64,000 bases of DNA from Paludibaculum fermentans (GTDB lineage: Bacteria > Acidobacteriota > Terriglobia > Bryobacterales > Bryobacteraceae), in the NCBI RefSeq assembly GCF_015277775.1, contig NZ_CP063849.1, forward strand, positions 7,517,501 through 7,581,500, in the 5' to 3' direction. Both the position numbers and the translations under genes were made by a program. Below, piece by piece: positions 27,316 through 36,488 of the stretch; positions within the stretch are counted from its first letter, which is position 1, and each line of letters opens with the position of its first letter. Below the pieces are notes generated by a model that saw nothing but the letters and a program-made list of their open reading frames with translations, had not been told where the DNA came from and searched no databases.

Positions 27316-27392
27316 TGGCGCGCCCGGAGAGACTCGAACTCCCGACCTGCTGGTTCGAAGCCAGACGCTCTATCCGACTGAGCTACGGGCGC
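27316..27392 (-). tRNA. tRNA-Arg (anticodon TCG)
   Basis: On the minus strand a full cloverleaf can be drawn. The acceptor GCGCCCG (27386-27392) pairs with CGGGCGC (27320-27326), with discriminator G (27319) and an encoded CCA (27316-27318). The D arm is GCTCAGTCGGATAGAGC, the anticodon loop CTTCGAA gives TCG, and the T arm has GTTCGAGTC. The first anticodon-stem pair is T-C, leaving four firm pairs. It decodes CGA (and wobble CGN). Confidence 0.93.
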
Positions 27393-27455: not shown

Positions 27456-27803
27456 CTAAGACAGTGCGTCCCAGCCGCCGGACTTTTCTGCGGCCTCTTC
27501 CCAGTCGGATTCCGATGTCCGGGTGAAGATCTGCTTCATGCGCTGGGCGGCGGGGACGCTGGTATCGGCCAAAACCTTGCCGATCTTCGGATGCAGGTCG
27601 AAATCGGGCGCGACGAGGAACATCAGCGACACGTAGGCCGTGATCGCTTCCGGTTGTTCAATGCCGTGGCCCTGGGCCCGGCGGATGCCCACAGCCGCGC
27701 GGCGGCGGATCTCCTCATCGGCGATTTCGGCTACCGTTTCCGGCTGTTCCTCGCACAGGTAATCGAATACGTGGTCGAGCAGATCTTCCTCATCGGGCGT
27801 CAT
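27456..27803 (-). CDS. Small acidic protein, last gene of the amidoligase operon
   Basis: 115 residues, strongly acidic (TPDEEDLLDHVFDYLCEEQP), predicted all-helical, with no membrane span. The pattern GIRRAQGHGIEQPEAITAYV then LMFLVAPDFDLHPKIG suggests a conserved helical family, but I cannot name it. ATG 27803 overlaps the upstream stop by 4 bp, so it is made together with the ligases. It could be a regulator or an adaptor for the operon's enzymes. Confidence 0.7.
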   Translation of the reverse strand: MTPDEEDLLDHVFDYLCEEQPETVAEIADEEIRRRAAVGIRRAQGHGIEQPEAITAYVSLMFLVAPDFDLHPKIGKVLADTSVPAAQRMKQIFTRTSESDWEEAAEKSGGWDALS

Positions 27804-28987
27804 GACTCTTCATGGTACAGCGCCGCGCTGGCTCCGACCCACTCCATATTCCTGTTGTGGTCCACGCCCATCATCTTGCCGCGGCCCATTCGAATGATAT
27901 GGGTGACCGGGCGGCGGTTGACGTACATCACCCGGATCTCGGCCTTGGTGAGCCCGAAGGGGGTCTCGACGACGGGGGTGAACTCCACCCGCTGTTGCAG
28001 GATGAAGTTGGCGCGCTGGGCGGCCGGGATGGCGTCGATGTCCGCTTTCTCGGGGCCGATCACCACGCCGAGTCCGGCGAAGGAGTAGAGCGGCTTCAGC
28101 ACCCACTTCGACAGGTCGTCCGGCAGCTTTTCCACTCGGTCCAGGAAGATGGTTTCCGGTACCGAGGGGTGATGGAGGTAAGGAATGGAGAACTTCGAGA
28201 CACGGAAGTAGAAGTTCGGGTGGCCGGCCCATTCCACGTCCAGGTCGTCGCGCCAGTCGAAGGGCATGGCCACCTGGCGGCGTTCGATCTCGTCGACGAT
28301 GGCGCGGTTGTAGATGCGGCGGATCTCCACTTCGCGTCCGTCCCGCTGGTAGAACAGGTTACGGCCGCGCCTCACGACCTGGGTGAGGCAGACGGCCCTG
28401 ACGCCGAGCATGCGCTCTGTCAGCAGGAAGTCGCAGCGCGTCTTCTGGTGGCCGGGATCCACTTCCAGCAGGACGACGTTTTCGGGGTCGTGGCCGCCGA
28501 CGATCGAGTGCTTCAGCAGAGCCCAGTATTGGGAATTGTTGAGGCCGTCCAGCAGGTAGTGGAGGTCTACGGGCATCTCGTAGGCGTCGATGTAGCTCTG
28601 CGCGAGTACGGGCTGGAAGGCGTAGAGGGAAGGGAAGCCCTGTATCTCCACCAGCTTAGGGTGAAGGAAGCCGTCCTCTCCGCGGACCACGCCGAAGTCG
28701 ACCTGGACGAACATCGGCTCAGCGGGTTCGTTTGGGACGTTGTATTGCTCGGGCAGCGAGGCGTCGGAGATCCGGCGGTAGGCGGGGTCGTCCACCAGTT
28801 GACTAATGAGTTCGCGGCCTTCGCGCGAGATGCGCTGCATGAAGTCCGAGTCGAAGAAGCAGGGCGTTTCGCAGAGGCGGAACCCGACGTGGGTGCCGCT
28901 GCGTTCGTCGATTAAAGACTGGAATCGCGCGAACCGCTCCGGCGTGAAGTGGCTGTTGAAGAGGCGCCGGAGTTCATCGCCTTTCAC
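27800..28987 (-). CDS. ATP-grasp-like ligase, possibly circularly permuted
   Basis: 395 residues from GTG 28987, which overlaps the upstream stop by 4 bp. WVLKPLYSFAGLGVVIGP (about 305-322) looks like the ATP-grasp lysine plus glycine-rich loop, FILQQRVEF like the adenine-contact strand, and KAEIRVMYV like a catalytic strand. The acidic metal-binding segment (KLVEIQGFPSLYAFQ) lies near residue 120, ahead of them, which suggests a permuted order. ATP-grasp enzymes join a carboxylate to an amine through an acyl phosphate. No substrate is readable. Confidence 0.7.
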   Translation of the reverse strand: MKGDELRRLFNSHFTPERFARFQSLIDERSGTHVGFRLCETPCFFDSDFMQRISREGRELISQLVDDPAYRRISDASLPEQYNVPNEPAEPMFVQVDFGVVRGEDGFLHPKLVEIQGFPSLYAFQPVLAQSYIDAYEMPVDLHYLLDGLNNSQYWALLKHSIVGGHDPENVVLLEVDPGHQKTRCDFLLTERMLGVRAVCLTQVVRRGRNLFYQRDGREVEIRRIYNRAIVDEIERRQVAMPFDWRDDLDVEWAGHPNFYFRVSKFSIPYLHHPSVPETIFLDRVEKLPDDLSKWVLKPLYSFAGLGVVIGPEKADIDAIPAAQRANFILQQRVEFTPVVETPFGLTKAEIRVMYVNRRPVTHIIRMGRGKMMGVDHNRNMEWVGASAALYHEES

Positions 28988-29985
28988 AGCGCGAACTCCC
29001 CGTCCTGCATGATCAGGCGGTCGTCGGCGTGAATGGTGAACTTCCGGCCCACGACATCGATGTGGGTCGAGGAGTACCACTGCGCTCCGGTGTGGTCGCC
29101 GTAGGGATTGCCGAAGGCGATGTGGACGCCGGGGATCTTCTCGTCCTGCAGGATGTTGCCGATGACATCGCGGACGCCCAGGTTGGTGCCGATGGCGAAC
29201 TCGCCGACACGGTCTGAGTTCTCATCGGTGTGGGTGTACTGCCAGAACTCGGTTTCCAGTTCCTTGTTGGCGCAGTGTGCTTCCTTCAGCCGGTTGCCCT
29301 CGATGAGCAGCGTGAGCGGAGTGGCGGCCAGGTCGCCGTACTTCGCGCAAAGATAGTCGCCCACTACGCCGTCCACGACAAAGCGGCCGTTCACCTCGCC
29401 GGGGGTGGTCCAGACTTCGCCGCCGGGCAGGTTGCCCCACGTGTTCTCGCTGATAATCCCGCTTGTTTTCAGCCACTTGTAGTCGGGATTCATGGTCGCC
29501 ACGATATCCGTGCCGGCGGCGTTGCGGGCGCGGATCTGCCTGGCTGGACGGGTGATGTCGAGCAGGCGGAGGCTCAGGTCGTCCACCGCCAGGTAGTCCG
29601 CCCGCATGCCTTCGAGCATGATGCGCTTCTCGATGTTCACCATGTGGGCGTGGCGGATCTTGCGGCGGTTCACCACGTCGGTCATCTGCATGCGGCTGCG
29701 GAGCTCGTTGCGCTGCGCCACCACGGCAAAGATGCTCACCTGGCTCGACTCCATGTCGTCCAGCACCACCTGCGGCATCGCTTCCAGAGGGCGCGCGGCG
29801 CACTCTTCGAGGACGAACGTCTGGTAAGGGGCTCCGATTTCCGCCAGTGCCGCCTCCAGTGCGGCCGCGATCTCGCGGGAGACGTTGTCGGTGATGACCG
29901 TTACTTTTTCGTGCGGTTGGACGCGCAGGCAGACCCTGACTGCGTTGCGCGCCCCTTGCGTCAATTCAGGGTCGAAAGGGATCAA
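28984..29985 (-). CDS. M29-like (leucyl) aminopeptidase
   Basis: 333 residues of the thermophilic-aminopeptidase (COG2309-like) group. Candidate metal ligands fall in the C-terminal half: GEFAIGTN (Glu), HIAFGNPYGDHTG and STHIDVV (His/Asp). M29 enzymes are about 400 residues, so this is a short member. It is cytosolic, with no leader. It is overlapped by 4 bp at both ends by neighbours of the amidoligase operon, so it likely trims or recycles the peptide made there. Confidence 0.8.
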   Translation of the reverse strand: MIPFDPELTQGARNAVRVCLRVQPHEKVTVITDNVSREIAAALEAALAEIGAPYQTFVLEECAARPLEAMPQVVLDDMESSQVSIFAVVAQRNELRSRMQMTDVVNRRKIRHAHMVNIEKRIMLEGMRADYLAVDDLSLRLLDITRPARQIRARNAAGTDIVATMNPDYKWLKTSGIISENTWGNLPGGEVWTTPGEVNGRFVVDGVVGDYLCAKYGDLAATPLTLLIEGNRLKEAHCANKELETEFWQYTHTDENSDRVGEFAIGTNLGVRDVIGNILQDEKIPGVHIAFGNPYGDHTGAQWYSSTHIDVVGRKFTIHADDRLIMQDGEFAL

Positions 29986-31091
29986 TTGAGCCCCGCTTCT
30001 GTTTCCTGGATGATGTAGTCCACGACGGCCTTGAGGTCGCGTGTTTCGTGGAAGACCTTTAGCTGCCGGTCGGCTCCGGTGCCTTCTTCGAGGATCTGCC
30101 GCAGGTAATTGATTTCGCCGAGGCTACCAAGTTCTTCGGCCACGGGCGCCACCATATTGAAATACTCCTCCATGAGGTCGCGGAACGGGACTTCCACCCG
30201 CTTGCCGAAATCGATCAGCTTGCCGTTGATGCCGTAGCGGACGGCGCGCCACTTATTTTCCATCAACAACATACGGCGATAGAGGCGGAAACCCTGGTTG
30301 TTGGAGTGGAGCTTCCAGAGCATGACCACGGTGGCCTGGATGAGCGCCGCCAGGGCGATGGTTTCGTCCAGGCGCATGGGCAGGTCGCAGATGCGGAACT
30401 CGATGGTGGAGAACGTCGGATGGGGCCGGAGGTCCCACCAGATCTTCTTGGCGTTGTCGATGCAGCCGGTCTGGATGAGGAGGTTTACCAGGCTCTCGTA
30501 TTCCCCATAGCTCTGGAAGTAGTCTGGGATATTGGTGCGGGGGAACTTGTCGAAGACCTTGCACCGATAGCTGCGCAGGCCGGTTTCGTCGCCCAGCCAG
30601 AAGGGTGAGTTGGTGGAGAGCGCGAGGATGTGGGGCAGGAAGTAGCGCGCGGCGTTCATGATGTGGATCGCGGTTTCGCGGTCCTCAATGCCCACGTGAA
30701 CGTGCAGCCCGAAGATCAGGTTGGCGCGGGCCACGTTCTGCATGTCTTCGACGATGGTCCGGTAGCGTTCGTCCGGATAGATGCTCTGGTTCCGCCAGTG
30801 GGAGAACGGATGGGTAGCGGCGGCCGCCAGCCTGAGTCCGTTCGCCTTGGCGAGAGCCACCATGTGGCGGCGGATGGTGGTGATCTCGGCCCGCGCCTCG
30901 GCGATGTTGTGGCAGATCTCGGTACCGACCTCGACCACGCACTGGTGCATCTCCGGCTTGACGCGCTCGCGCAGCACCAGTTTGCCCTGCTCGATCATTT
31001 CCGCGTCGATGTGACTGCGCAGCTCCCGCGTCACGGGATCGACGGTCATGTATTCTTCTTCGATGCCGATGGTGAAGCTTGGACTCTTCAT
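29982..31091 (-). CDS. GCS2-type carboxylate-amine ligase (YbdK-like)
   Basis: 369 residues beginning with FTIGIEEEYMTV (acidic metal-binding triad at 11-13), then EMHQCVVEVGT, FGLHVHVGI and FSTIEFRICDLPMR. This is the glutamate-cysteine-ligase 2 family, which makes gamma-glutamyl or other amide bonds at the cost of ATP. No glutathione synthetase-type neighbour of standard kind is present, but two ATP-grasp genes are. ATG 31091 has a strong GGAGGAG site. Its stop overlaps the aminopeptidase start by 4 bp. Confidence 0.88.
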   Translation of the reverse strand: MKSPSFTIGIEEEYMTVDPVTRELRSHIDAEMIEQGKLVLRERVKPEMHQCVVEVGTEICHNIAEARAEITTIRRHMVALAKANGLRLAAAATHPFSHWRNQSIYPDERYRTIVEDMQNVARANLIFGLHVHVGIEDRETAIHIMNAARYFLPHILALSTNSPFWLGDETGLRSYRCKVFDKFPRTNIPDYFQSYGEYESLVNLLIQTGCIDNAKKIWWDLRPHPTFSTIEFRICDLPMRLDETIALAALIQATVVMLWKLHSNNQGFRLYRRMLLMENKWRAVRYGINGKLIDFGKRVEVPFRDLMEEYFNMVAPVAEELGSLGEINYLRQILEEGTGADRQLKVFHETRDLKAVVDYIIQETEAGLN

Positions 31092-31110
31092 GAGCGTCTC
31101 CTCCTGCTTA

Positions 31111-32052
31111 CTAGCGTTGGCCGCCGGCCAGGAACCGGCCCCAGTGGTAGTCGTCCCGCGGCAGGACAGGGCTGAGCGCCGTGGCGATAGCGAAGTCGGC
31201 CATGGCCTCGAGAATCCACTCGAAGTTCTCCTCGCCGACGGAGAACCTGTCGGCGTCCGGAGCCGGATTCAGGTAGTCGATGGCGTAAGGGATGCCGTCG
31301 CGCACCGCGAACTCCACCGTATTCATGTCGTAACCCAGTGCCCTGCAAAGCTTTAGCGCGTCGGCCACGATCCGGTCGTAGAGCGGGGATTGCCTGGGGT
31401 CGGCGGTGGTGACGTAGCGCTGCTCGTGCGGGAGGCGCGGGTCGTAGGCCATGACATGCACCTTTTCGCGGCCGATGACGTAGCAGCGGTAGTAGTCGGT
31501 GAAGTCGATGTTTTCCTGGAGCACCATGCCCAGGTCGCCCGTCTGGTTGTAGGCGGCGTAGAGCTCGTCGGGGGAATTCACTTTGTAGACGTTCCGCCAG
31601 CCGCCGCCCAGATGCGGTTTCATGAAGGCGGGAAAGCCAATGTAGTCAAAGACTTCCTGCCAGTTGAGAGGGTGCATCAGGTTGCGCATCGACTGGGAGG
31701 TCGTGCTGGGTGGATGGGAGTGGTGCGGCAGCATGACGGTTTTGGGAACCGCCACGCCGATCTGCTCGCCCAGCGCGTAGTTGAAGAACTTGTCGTCGGC
31801 GCTCCACCAGAACGGATTGTTGATGACCTTGGCGCCGTGGAGGATGGCGTTCCGGAGGTAGGCCCGATAGAACGGGATATCGTGCGAAATCCGGTCGATG
31901 ATGACCTCGTAGCCACTGGGTTTGTCCATGCGGAACGCGCCGGTCATCAGGCTCTCGGCGATCACTCCGTCCACCTGCCGCGCGTTGATGCGCTCCACCA
32001 ATGCCATCGGGAAGGTGTTCTCCATCCCATACAAAAGCCCGATCTTCTTCAT
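31111..32052 (-). CDS. ATP-grasp (RimK-like) ligase
   Basis: 313 residues: an N-terminal pre-ATP-grasp domain (MKKIGLLYGMENTFPMALV), the lysine/glycine loop AFMKPHLGGGWRNVYKV (about 145-161), MVLQENIDF and the metal site YAIDYLNPAPDAD. Such enzymes form peptide bonds between an acid and an amine. ATG 32052 follows GGAGGAAG. Second gene of the operon, 19 bp ahead of the GCS2-like ligase. Close but distinct from RimK and from D-Ala-D-Ala ligase. Confidence 0.85.
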   Translation of the reverse strand: MKKIGLLYGMENTFPMALVERINARQVDGVIAESLMTGAFRMDKPSGYEVIIDRISHDIPFYRAYLRNAILHGAKVINNPFWWSADDKFFNYALGEQIGVAVPKTVMLPHHSHPPSTTSQSMRNLMHPLNWQEVFDYIGFPAFMKPHLGGGWRNVYKVNSPDELYAAYNQTGDLGMVLQENIDFTDYYRCYVIGREKVHVMAYDPRLPHEQRYVTTADPRQSPLYDRIVADALKLCRALGYDMNTVEFAVRDGIPYAIDYLNPAPDADRFSVGEENFEWILEAMADFAIATALSPVLPRDDYHWGRFLAGGQR

Positions 32053-32085
32053 CCCTGCTTCCTCCGTTGAAGATGATTCCGCGAT

Positions 32086-32802
32086 CTAGCTAAAGTACTT
32101 CTTCGACATGAGCTGCCACAAGGGCCAATCGTGGACCGCGCCCAGCCCCCAGTAGTCGAACCAGTGGGGGATGCCCTTGGCGTTGAAGATGCCCGAGATG
32201 CGGCGGTTCTCCTCCAGGCAGATGTCGTGTTCGCCCGCGCCGAAAACCCAGCGGATCTCGCGACGGTACTGGTCAAGATACCAGGCGTCCTGCGTGTTGG
32301 GCACGAAGTCCACCGGGTTGTTGAAGTAGCACTCGTTGTCATAGTAGCCGCCCAGGAACTGTTTGATGTCGTAGGCGCCCGACATGGAGACACAAGTGTG
32401 AACACATTCCGGATGGCGCAACGCAAAGTTCGTGCAGTGGTAGCCGCCGAAGCTGCAACCGGTCACCGCGACGCGGTGATGCCCGCTGCGGGCCCGCATC
32501 AGGGGCAGTACTTCTTTCAGGAGGTACTCCTCGTATTGCACGTGCCGGCGGACGCGGTCGGCTGGATGAATGCCTTTGTTGTACCAGCTCTCCCTGTCGA
32601 CACTGTCGACGCAGAAGAGCATGGCCTGGCCCGTATCCAGTTGCCATTGCATGGCTTGCACCATGCCGCGATCCTCGTATTCGAAGAACCGGCCCATCGA
32701 GCTGGGGAAGACCAGCATGGGGATTCCCCCGTGTCCGAACTGGAGAATCTCCATTTCCCGGCCCAATCGTTGGCTGTACCACTTGTGATATTCGCGATTC
32801 AT
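32086..32802 (-). CDS. Alpha/beta-hydrolase esterase (COG4947-like)
   Basis: 238 residues from ATG 32802. The nucleophile elbow is GCSFGG (Ser117), with Asp and His expected in GAGEHDICLEE and GAVHDW. There is no leader, so it is cytosolic. First gene of the six-gene operon. In that setting it could release or hydrolyse an ester or amide product, or transfer an acyl group. Start choice rests on the family's MxREYHKW-like beginning; no clear ribosome site precedes it. Confidence 0.8.
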   Translation of the reverse strand: MNREYHKWYSQRLGREMEILQFGHGGIPMLVFPSSMGRFFEYEDRGMVQAMQWQLDTGQAMLFCVDSVDRESWYNKGIHPADRVRRHVQYEEYLLKEVLPLMRARSGHHRVAVTGCSFGGYHCTNFALRHPECVHTCVSMSGAYDIKQFLGGYYDNECYFNNPVDFVPNTQDAWYLDQYRREIRWVFGAGEHDICLEENRRISGIFNAKGIPHWFDYWGLGAVHDWPLWQLMSKKYFS

Positions 32803-32972
32803 GGACGGCCCCAGCGCCTGCCCCCTTCCCGAGGTATTCTCCCAGTGTAGAGCAGGAGATTCGCGGCTGGATGAACCCCCGCGGGCCTCCTCCAACACCT
32901 TTTGAAGAAAAGACTTGTCAGCAAGCCTACACAGCGCTCAACTTTCCCATCCATTCTGTCGATAAACCCGAC
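32803..32972. promoter_or_regulatory. Divergent promoter region between amidoligase operon and hybrid kinase
   Basis: A 170-bp gap between two outward-facing genes, so it must hold both promoters. I see no confident -35/-10 pair and no strong inverted repeat. An open frame crosses it in the kinase frame, but without a ribosome site or leader-like sequence. Confidence 0.35.
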
Positions 32973-35900
32973 ATGGACCTACGCGCGAGCGGCCTCCGGC
33001 TGGCAGCGTGCCTGGCAGCAGTCTGCCTGGCACCGCGCGTGTGTGCCCAAAAGTTTGCGTTTCAGGAGTTTGGCTACGCGGACGGACTGCTGAACCTGGC
33101 CGTTGAGCAGGTGATCCAGGACAAGGACGGCTTCCTCTGGGTGGGCACCCAGAACGGGCTGTACCGCTTCGATGGGCACAGTTTCGCCGAGTATGGCATC
33201 AAGGACGGCGTGCCGGCGACCTCGCTGCAGTCGCTGCACCAGAGTCCCGACGGAACCATCTGGCTGGGAAGCCAAGTTGGCTTGTGGGTCCAGAACGGAA
33301 ACCGGTTCGACAAAGTCGACATCGCACCGGCCAAGAAAGTCGTGGGGGCACAGGGCGTTGCCTCGGACCGCTCCGGCCGGGTGTACATTGCGACGCCGTC
33401 CGGCCTGCTCATTGCCGACCGTCAGAAAACCGGGACCTGGAAGTACCACTACGCGACTGGCGTGAAGAGCCCCGTGGCCAGTGTGATGGTCAATCGCCGG
33501 GACGAAGTCTGGTTCGGCTGCCTGACGTCCATCTGCAAACTGGACGGTGAGAATGAGATCCCGGCCGCCACCTGGAGTGAGCAGCCGAAGGATCCATGGC
33601 AGTACATGCTGGAGGATCACGACGGCAATCTCTGGATCCGGAACCGGGTGACGGTGATGGTGCGCAGGGTGGGGACTGAGGAATTTGTGCCCGTCCCGTG
33701 CGACCGGTCGCTGAGCAGTCCCTGGGTGCCGCAGTTGGCCCTCGACAACAAGGGACGCCTGCTGGTGCCCCTGAAAGAGGGTTTCGCCATTCTGGAGGGG
33801 AACCGCTGGCGCTTTGTCACGCGGGCCCAGGGGCTCGCCGCAAACGACGTTTCCATGATCTTCCGGGACAAGGACGGTGCGATGTGGATCGGCCTGCTGG
33901 GCCGCGGGCTGTTTCGCTGGATCGGCTACGGAGAGTGGGAAGGCTACACCTACACGGAAGGACTCAACGACGAACTCGTCTGGCAGATCCTGCCTGACGG
34001 GCACGGCGCCATCTGGGTAGCCACGCGGGGCGGCCTTTATCTCGGGAGGAGAAAGTCGGAGAGGTACTTCTTCGAGCCGACTCCCGCCTTGCAGGGGGAA
34101 GAGATCCAGGCGCTCGCGATGGATCGGGATGGCAGCCTGTGGGCCGGATTGCGCGGCTTCGGCGCGGTTCACTTCTTTCCGGGAACAGGGCGTGTCGACC
34201 GGTATCCCATGGCCCAACTGGGGCGGAACAGTTACATCTCGCACATCGAGATCGACAAAGAGGGGCAGATCTGGGCCTCGACGACCACCAAGTCCGGGTT
34301 GAATCTCTTCAATCCGAAGACGCGCCGCTTCGAGCCGGTGGATGTGCCGGGTTCCGAGAAATCGACAGGGCTGACCATGAAGGTCCTGGCGGATGGCGAG
34401 CTCTGGTACGGCACAACCCACGGGTTGTTCCGCCGGACGGGCGGCCGATGGATCCGGTATGGGCTACGGGAAGGCTTGAAGTATGACGGCGTCTGGTCGA
34501 TCAGCGACGGGCCGGACGATTCGGTGTGGATCGCCTATCAGACGGGCATGGGGCTGACCCGCGCCACCCGCCAGGGCGACAAGCTGCAACTTTCGCACCT
34601 GACCCCCGCGGATGGACTGCCGTCGAACCAGATTTACTTCACGCGATTCGACACCAAGGGGAACATGTGGGTGGGGTCGGATCGAGGCGTGGGCGTCTTC
34701 AACGGCAAGCAATGGTCCCAGTACCGGCGCGGCGACGGGCTGGTGTGGGACGACTGCAACTCGGATGCGTTCGCGTCCGAGCCGGATGGCACCGTCTGGA
34801 TCGGGACGAGCGCGGGGCTCTCGCGTTTCCACGAATCCGAAGTCAAAGCAAGCCCGGGACCGCCCCGGGTGGTGCTTACTTCCGTCCAACTGGGTGGACA
34901 CCCCCAGACGCCGTCCACTGCCGCGAAGGTGGATTACCGCTGGAACACGCTGACGGTCCGGTTCGCGGTTCTGTCGTTTTCGCGGCCCTCCAGCCAGCGC
35001 TTCCGCTATCGTGTCGTTGGGCTTTCGTCGGAGTGGCAGAACACGTCGCAGCGTGAGATGCAGTTTGCGGAAATGCCGCCGGGCGACTACCGCCTGGAGG
35101 TGTACGGGTTTGACGGGTACAAGGAATGGAGCCGCGAGCCGGCCGTTTTCGCGTTCACGATTATGCCCCCGTGGTGGGCCAATCGCTACCTGCAGGGGCT
35201 GGTGGTCCTGCTGCTGATTGCGGCGGGCCTGTGGCGCATCGAGCGCGCGAAGCACCAGCACCGCGAGGAGACTGAGCGGCTGGAACGCGCGGTGGACGAG
35301 CGCACGAAGCAACTGCGGCTGGAGAAGGAACGGAGTGAACGGGCCAATCGCCTGAAAGACGAATTCCTGGCCAACGTCAGCCATGAGATCAGGACGCCGA
35401 TGAACGGCATCCTCGGCATGACGGAACTGGCGCTGGGTACGCCGCTGACGACGGAACAGAAGGATTATCTGGAGACCGTCAAGATCTCGGCCGACAGCCT
35501 GCTGGCCCTGCTAAACGACATTCTGGACCTCTCCAAGATCGAAGCGGGCTTCATGGAAATTGGCCACGAGGAGTTCCCGTTGCGCGATACCGTGCAGCAG
35601 GCGGTCCGCACGCTGGCCGGCCGGGCCGCGGCGAAGCGGCTGGAACTCACCTGCTCTTTCGACAAGAAACTGCCCAACCGGATGATCGGCGACAGTTCCC
35701 GGCTCAGGCAAGTGCTTCTGAACCTGCTCGGAAATGCCCTGAAGTTCACTGAGAAGGGATCCGTGTCGTTGAGTGTGGCCCTGGACCGCACCGTCGATAA
35801 CGATGCGGAGATTCGTTTCGAGGTGAAGGATACCGGTATCGGCATTCCGTTGGATCAGCAAAAACTCATCTTCGAAGCCTTCCGGCAGGCGGACGGTTCA

Positions 35901-36488
35901 GTCACACGCCGCTACGGCGGCACGGGGCTTGGCCTGGCGATCTCGGCCAAGATTGTCGACGGGATGGGGGGCCGGTTGGAGGTGGAGAGCGAGCCGGGCA
36001 AAGGCAGCCTCTTCCGCTTCTGGGTGAAGATGCAACTGGTTGCCCCGCTGGAGAATGCTCCGGATCCCGAACCGGAGCCTGTGCCGGAGCCACCGGCCCC
36101 AGCCCGGCTGCGCGTGCTGGTGGCCGAGGACAATCCGGTGAACCGCAAACTGGTGGAACGCCTGATGAGCAAGCGAGGCCACGACGTGGTGGCGGTTTCC
36201 GACGGCAAGCAGGCCGTCGACCGGATCTCAGTGCAACACTTCGATGTGGTTCTCATGGACGTGCAGATGCCAGGCATGGACGGGTTGGAGGCGACACGGC
36301 AGATCCGGAGCCTGGAAGTGGCCCTCGGCCGGCACGTGCCCATTCTGGCGCTGACGGCCAACGCCATGAAGGGCGATGAAGGCTCGTGCCTGGAAGCCGG
36401 CATGGATGGGTTCCTCACCAAGCCTTACGAGGCCGAAAAGCTGTTCGGCGTGATCGACGAAATGACTCGCCGCAACCCGATTCCATGA
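32973..36488 (+). CDS. Hybrid two-component sensor with periplasmic beta-propeller (reg_prop, Y_Y_Y, HisKA, HATPase, receiver)
   Basis: 1171 residues. The signal peptide MDLRASGLRLAACLAAVCLA ends near AQ26. Two-component propeller repeats follow (about 45-600; QDKDGFLWVGTQNGLYRFDG and similar), then a Y_Y_Y domain (about 640-715), one membrane span (about 740-760), a coiled coil, HisKA with His804 (NVSHEIRTPMNGILG), HATPase (LLGNALKFT, DTGIGIP, GTGLGLAIS) and a receiver with Asp1096 (VVLMDVQMPGMDG). This layout is used to sense polysaccharide fragments in Bacteroidetes and Acidobacteria. No DNA-binding domain, so a partner regulator is needed. ATG 32973 is chosen for the leader peptide. Confidence 0.88.
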   Translation: MDLRASGLRLAACLAAVCLAPRVCAQKFAFQEFGYADGLLNLAVEQVIQDKDGFLWVGTQNGLYRFDGHSFAEYGIKDGVPATSLQSLHQSPDGTIWLGSQVGLWVQNGNRFDKVDIAPAKKVVGAQGVASDRSGRVYIATPSGLLIADRQKTGTWKYHYATGVKSPVASVMVNRRDEVWFGCLTSICKLDGENEIPAATWSEQPKDPWQYMLEDHDGNLWIRNRVTVMVRRVGTEEFVPVPCDRSLSSPWVPQLALDNKGRLLVPLKEGFAILEGNRWRFVTRAQGLAANDVSMIFRDKDGAMWIGLLGRGLFRWIGYGEWEGYTYTEGLNDELVWQILPDGHGAIWVATRGGLYLGRRKSERYFFEPTPALQGEEIQALAMDRDGSLWAGLRGFGAVHFFPGTGRVDRYPMAQLGRNSYISHIEIDKEGQIWASTTTKSGLNLFNPKTRRFEPVDVPGSEKSTGLTMKVLADGELWYGTTHGLFRRTGGRWIRYGLREGLKYDGVWSISDGPDDSVWIAYQTGMGLTRATRQGDKLQLSHLTPADGLPSNQIYFTRFDTKGNMWVGSDRGVGVFNGKQWSQYRRGDGLVWDDCNSDAFASEPDGTVWIGTSAGLSRFHESEVKASPGPPRVVLTSVQLGGHPQTPSTAAKVDYRWNTLTVRFAVLSFSRPSSQRFRYRVVGLSSEWQNTSQREMQFAEMPPGDYRLEVYGFDGYKEWSREPAVFAFTIMPPWWANRYLQGLVVLLLIAAGLWRIERAKHQHREETERLERAVDERTKQLRLEKERSERANRLKDEFLANVSHEIRTPMNGILGMTELALGTPLTTEQKDYLETVKISADSLLALLNDILDLSKIEAGFMEIGHEEFPLRDTVQQAVRTLAGRAAAKRLELTCSFDKKLPNRMIGDSSRLRQVLLNLLGNALKFTEKGSVSLSVALDRTVDNDAEIRFEVKDTGIGIPLDQQKLIFEAFRQADGSVTRRYGGTGLGLAISAKIVDGMGGRLEVESEPGKGSLFRFWVKMQLVAPLENAPDPEPEPVPEPPAPARLRVLVAEDNPVNRKLVERLMSKRGHDVVAVSDGKQAVDRISVQHFDVVLMDVQMPGMDGLEATRQIRSLEVALGRHVPILALTANAMKGDEGSCLEAGMDGFLTKPYEAEKLFGVIDEMTRRNPIP

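Follow-up and report, generated by a model that had tools for sequence, protein, structure and literature searches.

What does a bacterium assemble, or take apart, with three predicted amide-forming ligases, a peptidase and an esterase encoded side by side? This question is raised by a locus of Paludibaculum fermentans (Acidobacteriota), situated in a stretch of 64,000 nucleotides of contig NZ_CP063849.1 (positions 7,517,501 to 7,581,500), referred to as the window in the following. Six open reading frames (ORFs) on the minus strand, at 27456-32802 of the window, had been described in a first-pass annotation and were all found there in an ORF check. Gene order, protein families, folds, conserved residues, co-occurrence and enzyme swaps were established for five of them, designated EST, ATPG, GCS2, M29 and PATG. 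With slightly better than even confidence, we read these five genes as a single pathway for the non-ribosomal assembly of a small (pseudo)peptide or peptide-amine, perhaps of gamma-glutamyl type, and for the turnover of this product.

A five-gene block conserved across phyla

The five genes were found colinear and in the same direction, in the order EST-ATPG-GCS2-M29-PATG, in 7 of the 38 other PATG regions of the phylum (L032, L033, L035, L036, L040, L041 and L044); in L036 and L040, M29 and PATG are separated by 1-1.6 kb. Other PATG regions contained subsets of the block, in some cases with EST reversed, and in 19 of the 38 PATG was the sole core gene of the region examined. For the distribution of the genes, 297 genomes of the Acidobacteriota and 296 genomes of the phylum of Cryomorpha ignava (G297), here called the second phylum, were sampled. 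PATG was detected in 39 of the 297 acidobacterial genomes and ATPG in 88, comprising 78 strong and ten weak matches; the latter (E 1e-41 to 1e-50) were counted as another family when the strong set was defined, and probably are one. ATPG was present in 37 of the 39 PATG genomes, the exceptions being G151 and G213 (Fisher test, 2e-20 with all 88 ATPG genomes and 6e-23 with the 78 strong ones, values which ignore relatedness and serve as a guide only). In the second phylum, ATPG was found in 108 genomes and PATG in 92, 89 of which contain both (3e-52, relatedness likewise ignored). Both genes are kept even in several genomes in which they are distant from each other, e.g. G094.

At least 576 confirmed ATPG relatives were obtained from a scan of genome contigs (genome_contigs), the best 80 loci of which were analysed as the named set. 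Their records are titled Acidobacteria, Ignavibacteria, Bacteroidota, KSB1 and Calditrichaeota. Core matches (profile E<=1e-4) in these 80 loci amounted to 59 for GCS2, 46 for EST, 43 for PATG and 40 for M29. Outside the core five, a second PF00756 esterase (19 loci, 16 of them at >=100 bits) and an aldo/keto reductase (12) were the top neighbour families, next to DinB_2-type (9; 8 at >=100 bits), GATase-fold (6) and PilZ (5) proteins; the Pfam labels of neighbour families are based on one or two members each. The DinB_2-type gene, of which the one member tested matched mycothiol-S-transferase weakly, is located near ATPG in L099, L108, L109, L110, L114, L121, L137 and L145, at a distance of about 5 kb in L121. 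A second set of 96 loci was fetched from the 108 ATPG genomes of the second phylum, with 54 matches for GCS2, 46 for PATG, 44 for EST, 41 for the GATase-fold protein (GAT) and 4 for M29. The two sets overlap by three contigs, so that the 176 loci represent 173 distinct ones. The first-pass annotation had proposed a dedicated set conserved as a block, with co-occurrence by chance in close relatives alone as the point to be checked; given the seven colinear regions, the other phyla and the joint presence of PATG and ATPG, the block is conserved far more widely than that.

In P. fermentans, the first two intergenic gaps (EST/ATPG and ATPG/GCS2) are 33 and 19 bp long, and 4-bp overlaps were found at three junctions (29982-29985, 28984-28987 and 27800-27803). 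The annotation had the last four gene starts overlapping the preceding stop; the three overlaps stand at these coordinates and the fourth does not exist.

Protein families and folds of the block

EST (32086..32802, minus strand) is the first gene of the block, ahead of ATPG in the conserved order, and encodes a 238-aa alpha/beta-hydrolase assigned to the PF00756 esterases (34.1 bits, Pfam cut-off 22). The residues S117, D193 and H224 are kept in 84, 89 and 86 of 90 sequences, respectively, and presumably form the catalytic triad, a role taken over from the esterase family. The esterase with Ser117 named previously is thereby recovered.

ATPG (31111..32052, minus strand; 313 aa) showed sub-threshold family matches throughout, among them the RimK family (6.6e-8; 32.2 versus 143.4 bits). 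According to a structure model built from 14 sequences (pLDDT 86.3), it folds as a classical ATP-grasp ligase of the LysX/RimK/D-Ala-D-Ala ligase type. The model matched 553 PDB entries at E<=0.001, the 50 listed being classical ATP-grasp ligases, including graspetide macrocyclases (MdnC, PsnB), D-Ala-D-Ala-type ligases, LysX/ArgX and RimK; the highest TM-scores among the matches listed, 0.67/0.76, were those to LysX/ArgX. Across 167 sequences, K88, K145, E247, D259 and N262 are conserved at 97% or more. No plasmid match was obtained for ATPG, and plasmid-borne spread of the block was rejected on this ground. In eight loci (L217, L219, L220, L223, L229, L231, L243 and L244), the rest of the block is missing and ATPG has a gene for an aromatic amino acid lyase (PF00221, from a test of one member) in its vicinity.

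GCS2 (29982..31091, minus strand; 369 aa) belongs to PF04107 (6.7e-66) and exceeded the cut-offs of the NCBIfam models PRK13515 (549.8 versus 371 bits) and TIGR02050 (309.6 versus 176.4). It is a YbdK-type carboxylate-amine ligase by family, with the activity predicted from sequence. The protein matches only once in the 9.5 Mb host genome. The glutamate triad E11-E12-E13, which had been pointed out before, is present in 98% or more of the 106 sequences compared and belongs, in this family, to the active-site strand. PRK13515 turns up in one paper, as a label for GshA.

M29 (28984..29985, minus strand; 333 aa) begins with a TTG codon, in a 4-bp overlap with the GCS2 stop, and resembles metallo-aminopeptidases (PF02073, 57.3 bits, cut-off 27), as had been suggested earlier. 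E190, E262, H288, Y295, H308 and D310 are invariant in 13 of 13 sequences and constitute a putative metal site; their function as metal ligands is assumed from the family. In an alignment with AmpS (1zjc), E190 and E262 coincide with glutamates. A weak match of M29 to 2,5-dihydroxypyridine dioxygenase was also obtained.

PATG (27800..28987, minus strand; 395 aa), the GTG start of which overlaps the M29 stop, had no match above a Pfam or NCBIfam cut-off (GSP_synth, 10.9 versus 29.3 bits); relative to GSP_synth it has a related fold and is a separate family. The earlier suggestion of an ATP-grasp fold was borne out by structure prediction: by the model (24 sequences; mean pLDDT 93.3, pTM 0.92), PATG folds as an ATP-grasp ligase of the glutathione-synthetase/GspS type. 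The 38 PDB matches at E<=0.001 all belong to one group, consisting of glutathione and homoglutathione synthetases, GspS-type and trypanothione synthetases, YgiC/YjfC, nematode GSS-like proteins and fungal Cp1B, and the next match, synapsin, followed at 0.013. Yeast glutathione synthetase was matched with a structure E-value of 1.1e-13. Since TM-scores by query length were 0.46-0.61, PATG shares the fold of these structures without close homology to them. Compared with the classical ATP-grasp, the glutathione synthetase/GspS/YgiC group is circularly permuted, and a weak profile match of PATG to a family of the CP_ATPgrasp_2 type (hhalign E 4.9e-4, probability 32%) is consistent with permutation. 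The conserved D97, E114, Q116, K265 and K298 presumably correspond to the positions of Mg and ATP ligands in GspS. Viral relatives of PATG were not found at E<=0.001. A PilZ-like gene, similar to that of L092, follows PATG in 12 of the 38 regions (L034, L037-L041, L043, L045, L046, L048, L053 and L067), including genomes with PATG far from the block.

The conserved residues of GCS2, ATPG and PATG include putative nucleotide and metal residues; alignments were restricted to GCS2 proteins of 340-460 aa and ATPG proteins of 280-420 aa, and L069 was left out for PATG. No fusions between core genes were found; a long PATG ORF of 1010 aa in L097 was dismissed as a fusion, for it contains X residues and spans an assembly gap. 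With three predicted ligases, M29 and EST in the conserved block, the annotation's core statement of up to three amide-forming ligases partnered by a peptidase and an esterase is retained.

Enzyme exchanges and surrounding genes

In a part of the loci, the M29 slot between GCS2 and PATG is occupied by the GATase-fold protein GAT, in which C107, H210 and E212 are kept in 41 of 41 sequences. M29 and GAT were never found together in either set of loci (80 and 96). Of the loci encoding all three ligases, the named set contains 30 with M29, 4 with GAT and 6 with neither, and the second phylum 4, 27 and 12, respectively. Six GAT genomes were checked for M29 relatives (E<=1e-5): three had none, and the other three had distant relatives elsewhere only. 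GATase-fold enzymes are known as gamma-glutamyl hydrolases, e.g. PuuD and plant GGP1. Ammonia supply is a less likely role for GAT, since it is not one that M29 would fill. DHOD-like and thioredoxin-like neighbours, named by eye, in loci without either hydrolase were weighed as substitute hydrolases and rejected. Four loci (L253, L256, L262 and L263) have an extended order with a second esterase, an M17 leucyl aminopeptidase, an extra ATP-grasp ligase, EST, ATPG, GCS2, GAT and PATG.

A second exchange affects the ligases. In 12 loci (L216, L224, L227, L233, L234, L235, L239, L249, L250, L261, L264 and L275), GCS2 and PATG are both missing and a protein of the CP_ATPgrasp_2 type (by a Pfam test of one member) is encoded; 11 of these loci have GAT. 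This variant block consists, in this order, of ATPG, the CP_ATPgrasp_2-type protein and the GATase-fold protein, often with a second esterase after them. PATG was found in none of the 12 genomes, and the CP_ATPgrasp_2-type protein was missing at the locus itself in the 80 PATG genomes fetched. This suggests that one circularly permuted ATP-grasp takes the place of both GCS2 and PATG, and the distribution is read as a replacement.

The integrity of EST differs with the presence of a hydrolase. Of the 11 loci with three ligases and without M29 or GAT, 5 have a broken triad, and of the 50 loci with M29 or GAT, none has; one duplicate row was removed for this count, and L127, which has an altered Asp and lacks both GCS2 and PATG, is not among the 11. 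In the five loci (L129, L140, L185, L193 and L198), found only among those without M29 or GAT, EST is in its operon place with the putative catalytic Ser117 changed, in four of them together with His224. EST and M29 or GAT may serve one breakdown branch and decay together.

The sixth ORF, P0006 (27456..27803, minus strand), encodes a 115-aa acidic protein and overlaps the PATG stop by 4 bp. It had no Pfam or NCBIfam match at E<=1 and no PADLOC match at E<=0.01, and it was found in 0 of the 38 other PATG regions. Within the class, 15 of 151 genomes have homologues. At 45-57% identity, they occur in five genomes of the same family, one of which, from the same genus, has the PATG end at about 1.2 kb, and the others have no block gene within the flank of about 1.5 kb examined. 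Furthermore, small ORFs of 22-130 aa beside the 83 three-ligase loci yielded no recurrent family, the biggest cluster covering 7 loci. The annotation had offered the acidic protein as the acceptor of the ligases; this candidate was rejected on the grounds of the 0 of 38 regions, the homologues largely apart from PATG and the lack of a recurrent small ORF. The gene is perhaps co-transcribed with the block, and the protein is outside the conserved system. A conserved precursor peptide was likewise rejected, none recurring beside the 83 loci, as was a LysW-like carrier, for which the best match in the genome of P. fermentans reached 39.2 bits at a cut-off of 53.2.

Directly downstream of the 115-aa gene, on the same strand, a tRNA-Arg (TCG) is located at 27316-27392, and a gene for a PLP-dependent cysteine-synthase-like protein (PF00291; 25557-26516, plus strand) lies about 0.9 kb past the 3' end of the operon on the opposite strand. 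A large hybrid histidine kinase with regulator-propeller repeats (32871-36488, plus strand) is encoded divergently, with about 70 bp between its start and that of EST, and both genes may therefore share a promoter region. A scan for sigma-70 promoters and terminators gave fewer sites than in shuffled sequences. None of the six proteins matched a PADLOC defence model, and a defence system was rejected for this reason.

Proposed pathway and its alternatives

Three differently built ligases with no conserved carrier or precursor adjacent suggest a small molecule made from free building blocks, and the two swaps, GAT for M29 and a permuted ATP-grasp for GCS2 plus PATG, support a single pathway. 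From the families and folds we infer its substrates, step order and product, the catalytic residues being assigned from the families. GCS2 would form the first bond, most likely between an amine and the side-chain carboxyl of glutamate or of an analogue; ATPG would add the second unit and PATG the last amino acid or amine. This order is the likeliest by analogy with glutathione and glutathionylspermidine synthesis. M29, or the GATase-fold hydrolase in relatives, would take off the amino-end residue for recycling or trimming, and EST may act on the product or on an intermediate by cutting an ester or thioester bond.

Several observations weigh against this pathway. Substrate and product are putative, and a gamma-glutamyl product is a guess from the family. 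The swaps and triad losses represent few events: on the PATG tree, which covers 76 of the 83 three-ligase loci, the hydrolase state needs 7 changes, and the EST triad was lost three times, always within one hydrolase-less group (SH-aLRT 94, not starred); an independent-pairs test had just 1 to 3 pairs, a number too small for a decision. The Fisher tests disregard relatedness. ATPG was without any partner family within 9 kb in 11 of 80 and 26 of 96 loci (contig ends included), and the absence of GCS2 in the 12 swap genomes applies to the locus level, GCS2 not having been searched elsewhere in them. Finally, the best folds modelled for ATPG include ligases acting on proteins or precursor peptides (RimK, LysX/ArgX, MdnC and PsnB).

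The last point would fit the tagging of a protein or carrier, to which ATPG and its partners would add amino acids, as RimK does on S6 and LysX on LysW, with M29 or GAT and EST detaching the tag; the pairing of a peptidase with the ligases agrees with it as well. However, the small ORFs and the LysW match described above offer no target, GCS2 and glutathione-synthetase-type enzymes are known as small-molecule ligases, and tagging is considered unlikely. The nearest structures of PATG, glutathione synthetases and GspS, point in another direction, namely to a glutathione-like low-molecular-weight thiol with GCS2 as gamma-Glu-Cys ligase, PATG as the glutathione-synthetase step, M29 or GAT as conjugate peptidase and EST as S-acyl-thiol hydrolase. 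The EST profile matched an S-formylglutathione hydrolase chain (2.4e-4), ranked behind other esterases, and DinB_2-type (8, or 9 with one weak) and aldo/keto reductase genes (12) accompany the best 80 loci; yet the eight DinB neighbours above 100 bits are all acidobacterial and the second phylum has a single weak one (L259). Moreover, BshC was matched (E<=1e-10) in 76 of the 78 acidobacterial genomes with a strong ATPG compared to 121 of the 219 others. The block thus accompanies the bacillithiol gene and does not replace it. Of these 76 matches, 62 were at 1e-91 or better and 14 weaker than 1e-76, the one of P. fermentans being among the weaker and in two pieces. A thiol substituting for glutathione is disfavoured, and we rate it somewhat lower than tagging.

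Scarcely different in its standing, and improbable too, is the utilisation or detoxification of amines by gamma-glutamylation, similar to the Puu route for putrescine, at the end of which GAT or M29 would remove the glutamate. PuuD is a class-I GATase relative, the GATase-fold hydrolase in the M29 slot retains its Cys-His-Glu triad, and the PATG fold resembles peptide-spermidine ligases. On the other hand, amine oxidase and aldehyde dehydrogenase are absent among the annotated neighbour families (smaller clusters were not annotated), and three ligases exceed what such a route needs. That the genes are chance neighbours or hitchhikers with no pathway in common is very improbable: some genomes do not keep the order, PATG and ATPG being widely separated in G094, for instance, but such genomes still hold both genes, and the order is preserved across phyla.

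Synthesis of glutathione and homoglutathione and of glutathionylspermidine and trypanothione likewise combines a first ligase of the GCS family with a ligase of the eukaryotic glutathione-synthetase/GspS fold. The block differs in its YbdK-type GCS2, an additional classical ATP-grasp ligase and a paired M29 or GATase-fold hydrolase; furthermore, PATG stays below the GSP_synth cut-off and most acidobacterial carriers are also BshC-positive. The peptide-spermidine ligases YgiC/YjfC of E. coli and fungal Cp1B of the E-64 pathway are small-molecule ATP-grasp amide ligases with a fold like that of PATG, which shares 14-16% identity with them in Foldseek alignments and has other gene partners. Cp1B itself is reported to resemble hGSH synthetase and YgiC/YjfC (PMC12568646). 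ATPG is similar in fold to RimK, LysX/ArgX and graspetide ligases; in contrast to these systems, the block has no conserved precursor peptide, the genome no LysW above the cut-off, and ATPG is below the RimK-family cut-off. Operons combining several ligases with a peptidase were reportedly predicted by Iyer et al. in 2009 (Mol Biosyst) and are of the same kind, with ATP-grasp or other amidoligases next to peptidases. The five-gene block was not found described in a literature search, with most subscription papers outside its reach.

More tentatively, the block may make a widespread peptidic metabolite or cofactor, unrecognised so far, by means of GCS2 and two structurally different ATP-grasp ligases, with M29 and the GATase-fold enzyme as interchangeable recycling hydrolases. 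ATPG, the diagnostic ligase, is encoded in about a quarter of the sampled acidobacterial genomes (78 of 297, strong matches) and in over a third of those of the second phylum (108 of 296). If this is true, a small molecule not found described is common to two large bacterial phyla, with the genes for its making and its degradation identified. The two enzyme swaps would restrict which steps must exist, and the pathway would be directly testable in vitro. Within the glutathione-synthetase/GspS fold, the PATG of P. fermentans would stand for a bacterial branch lying below every Pfam and NCBIfam cut-off.

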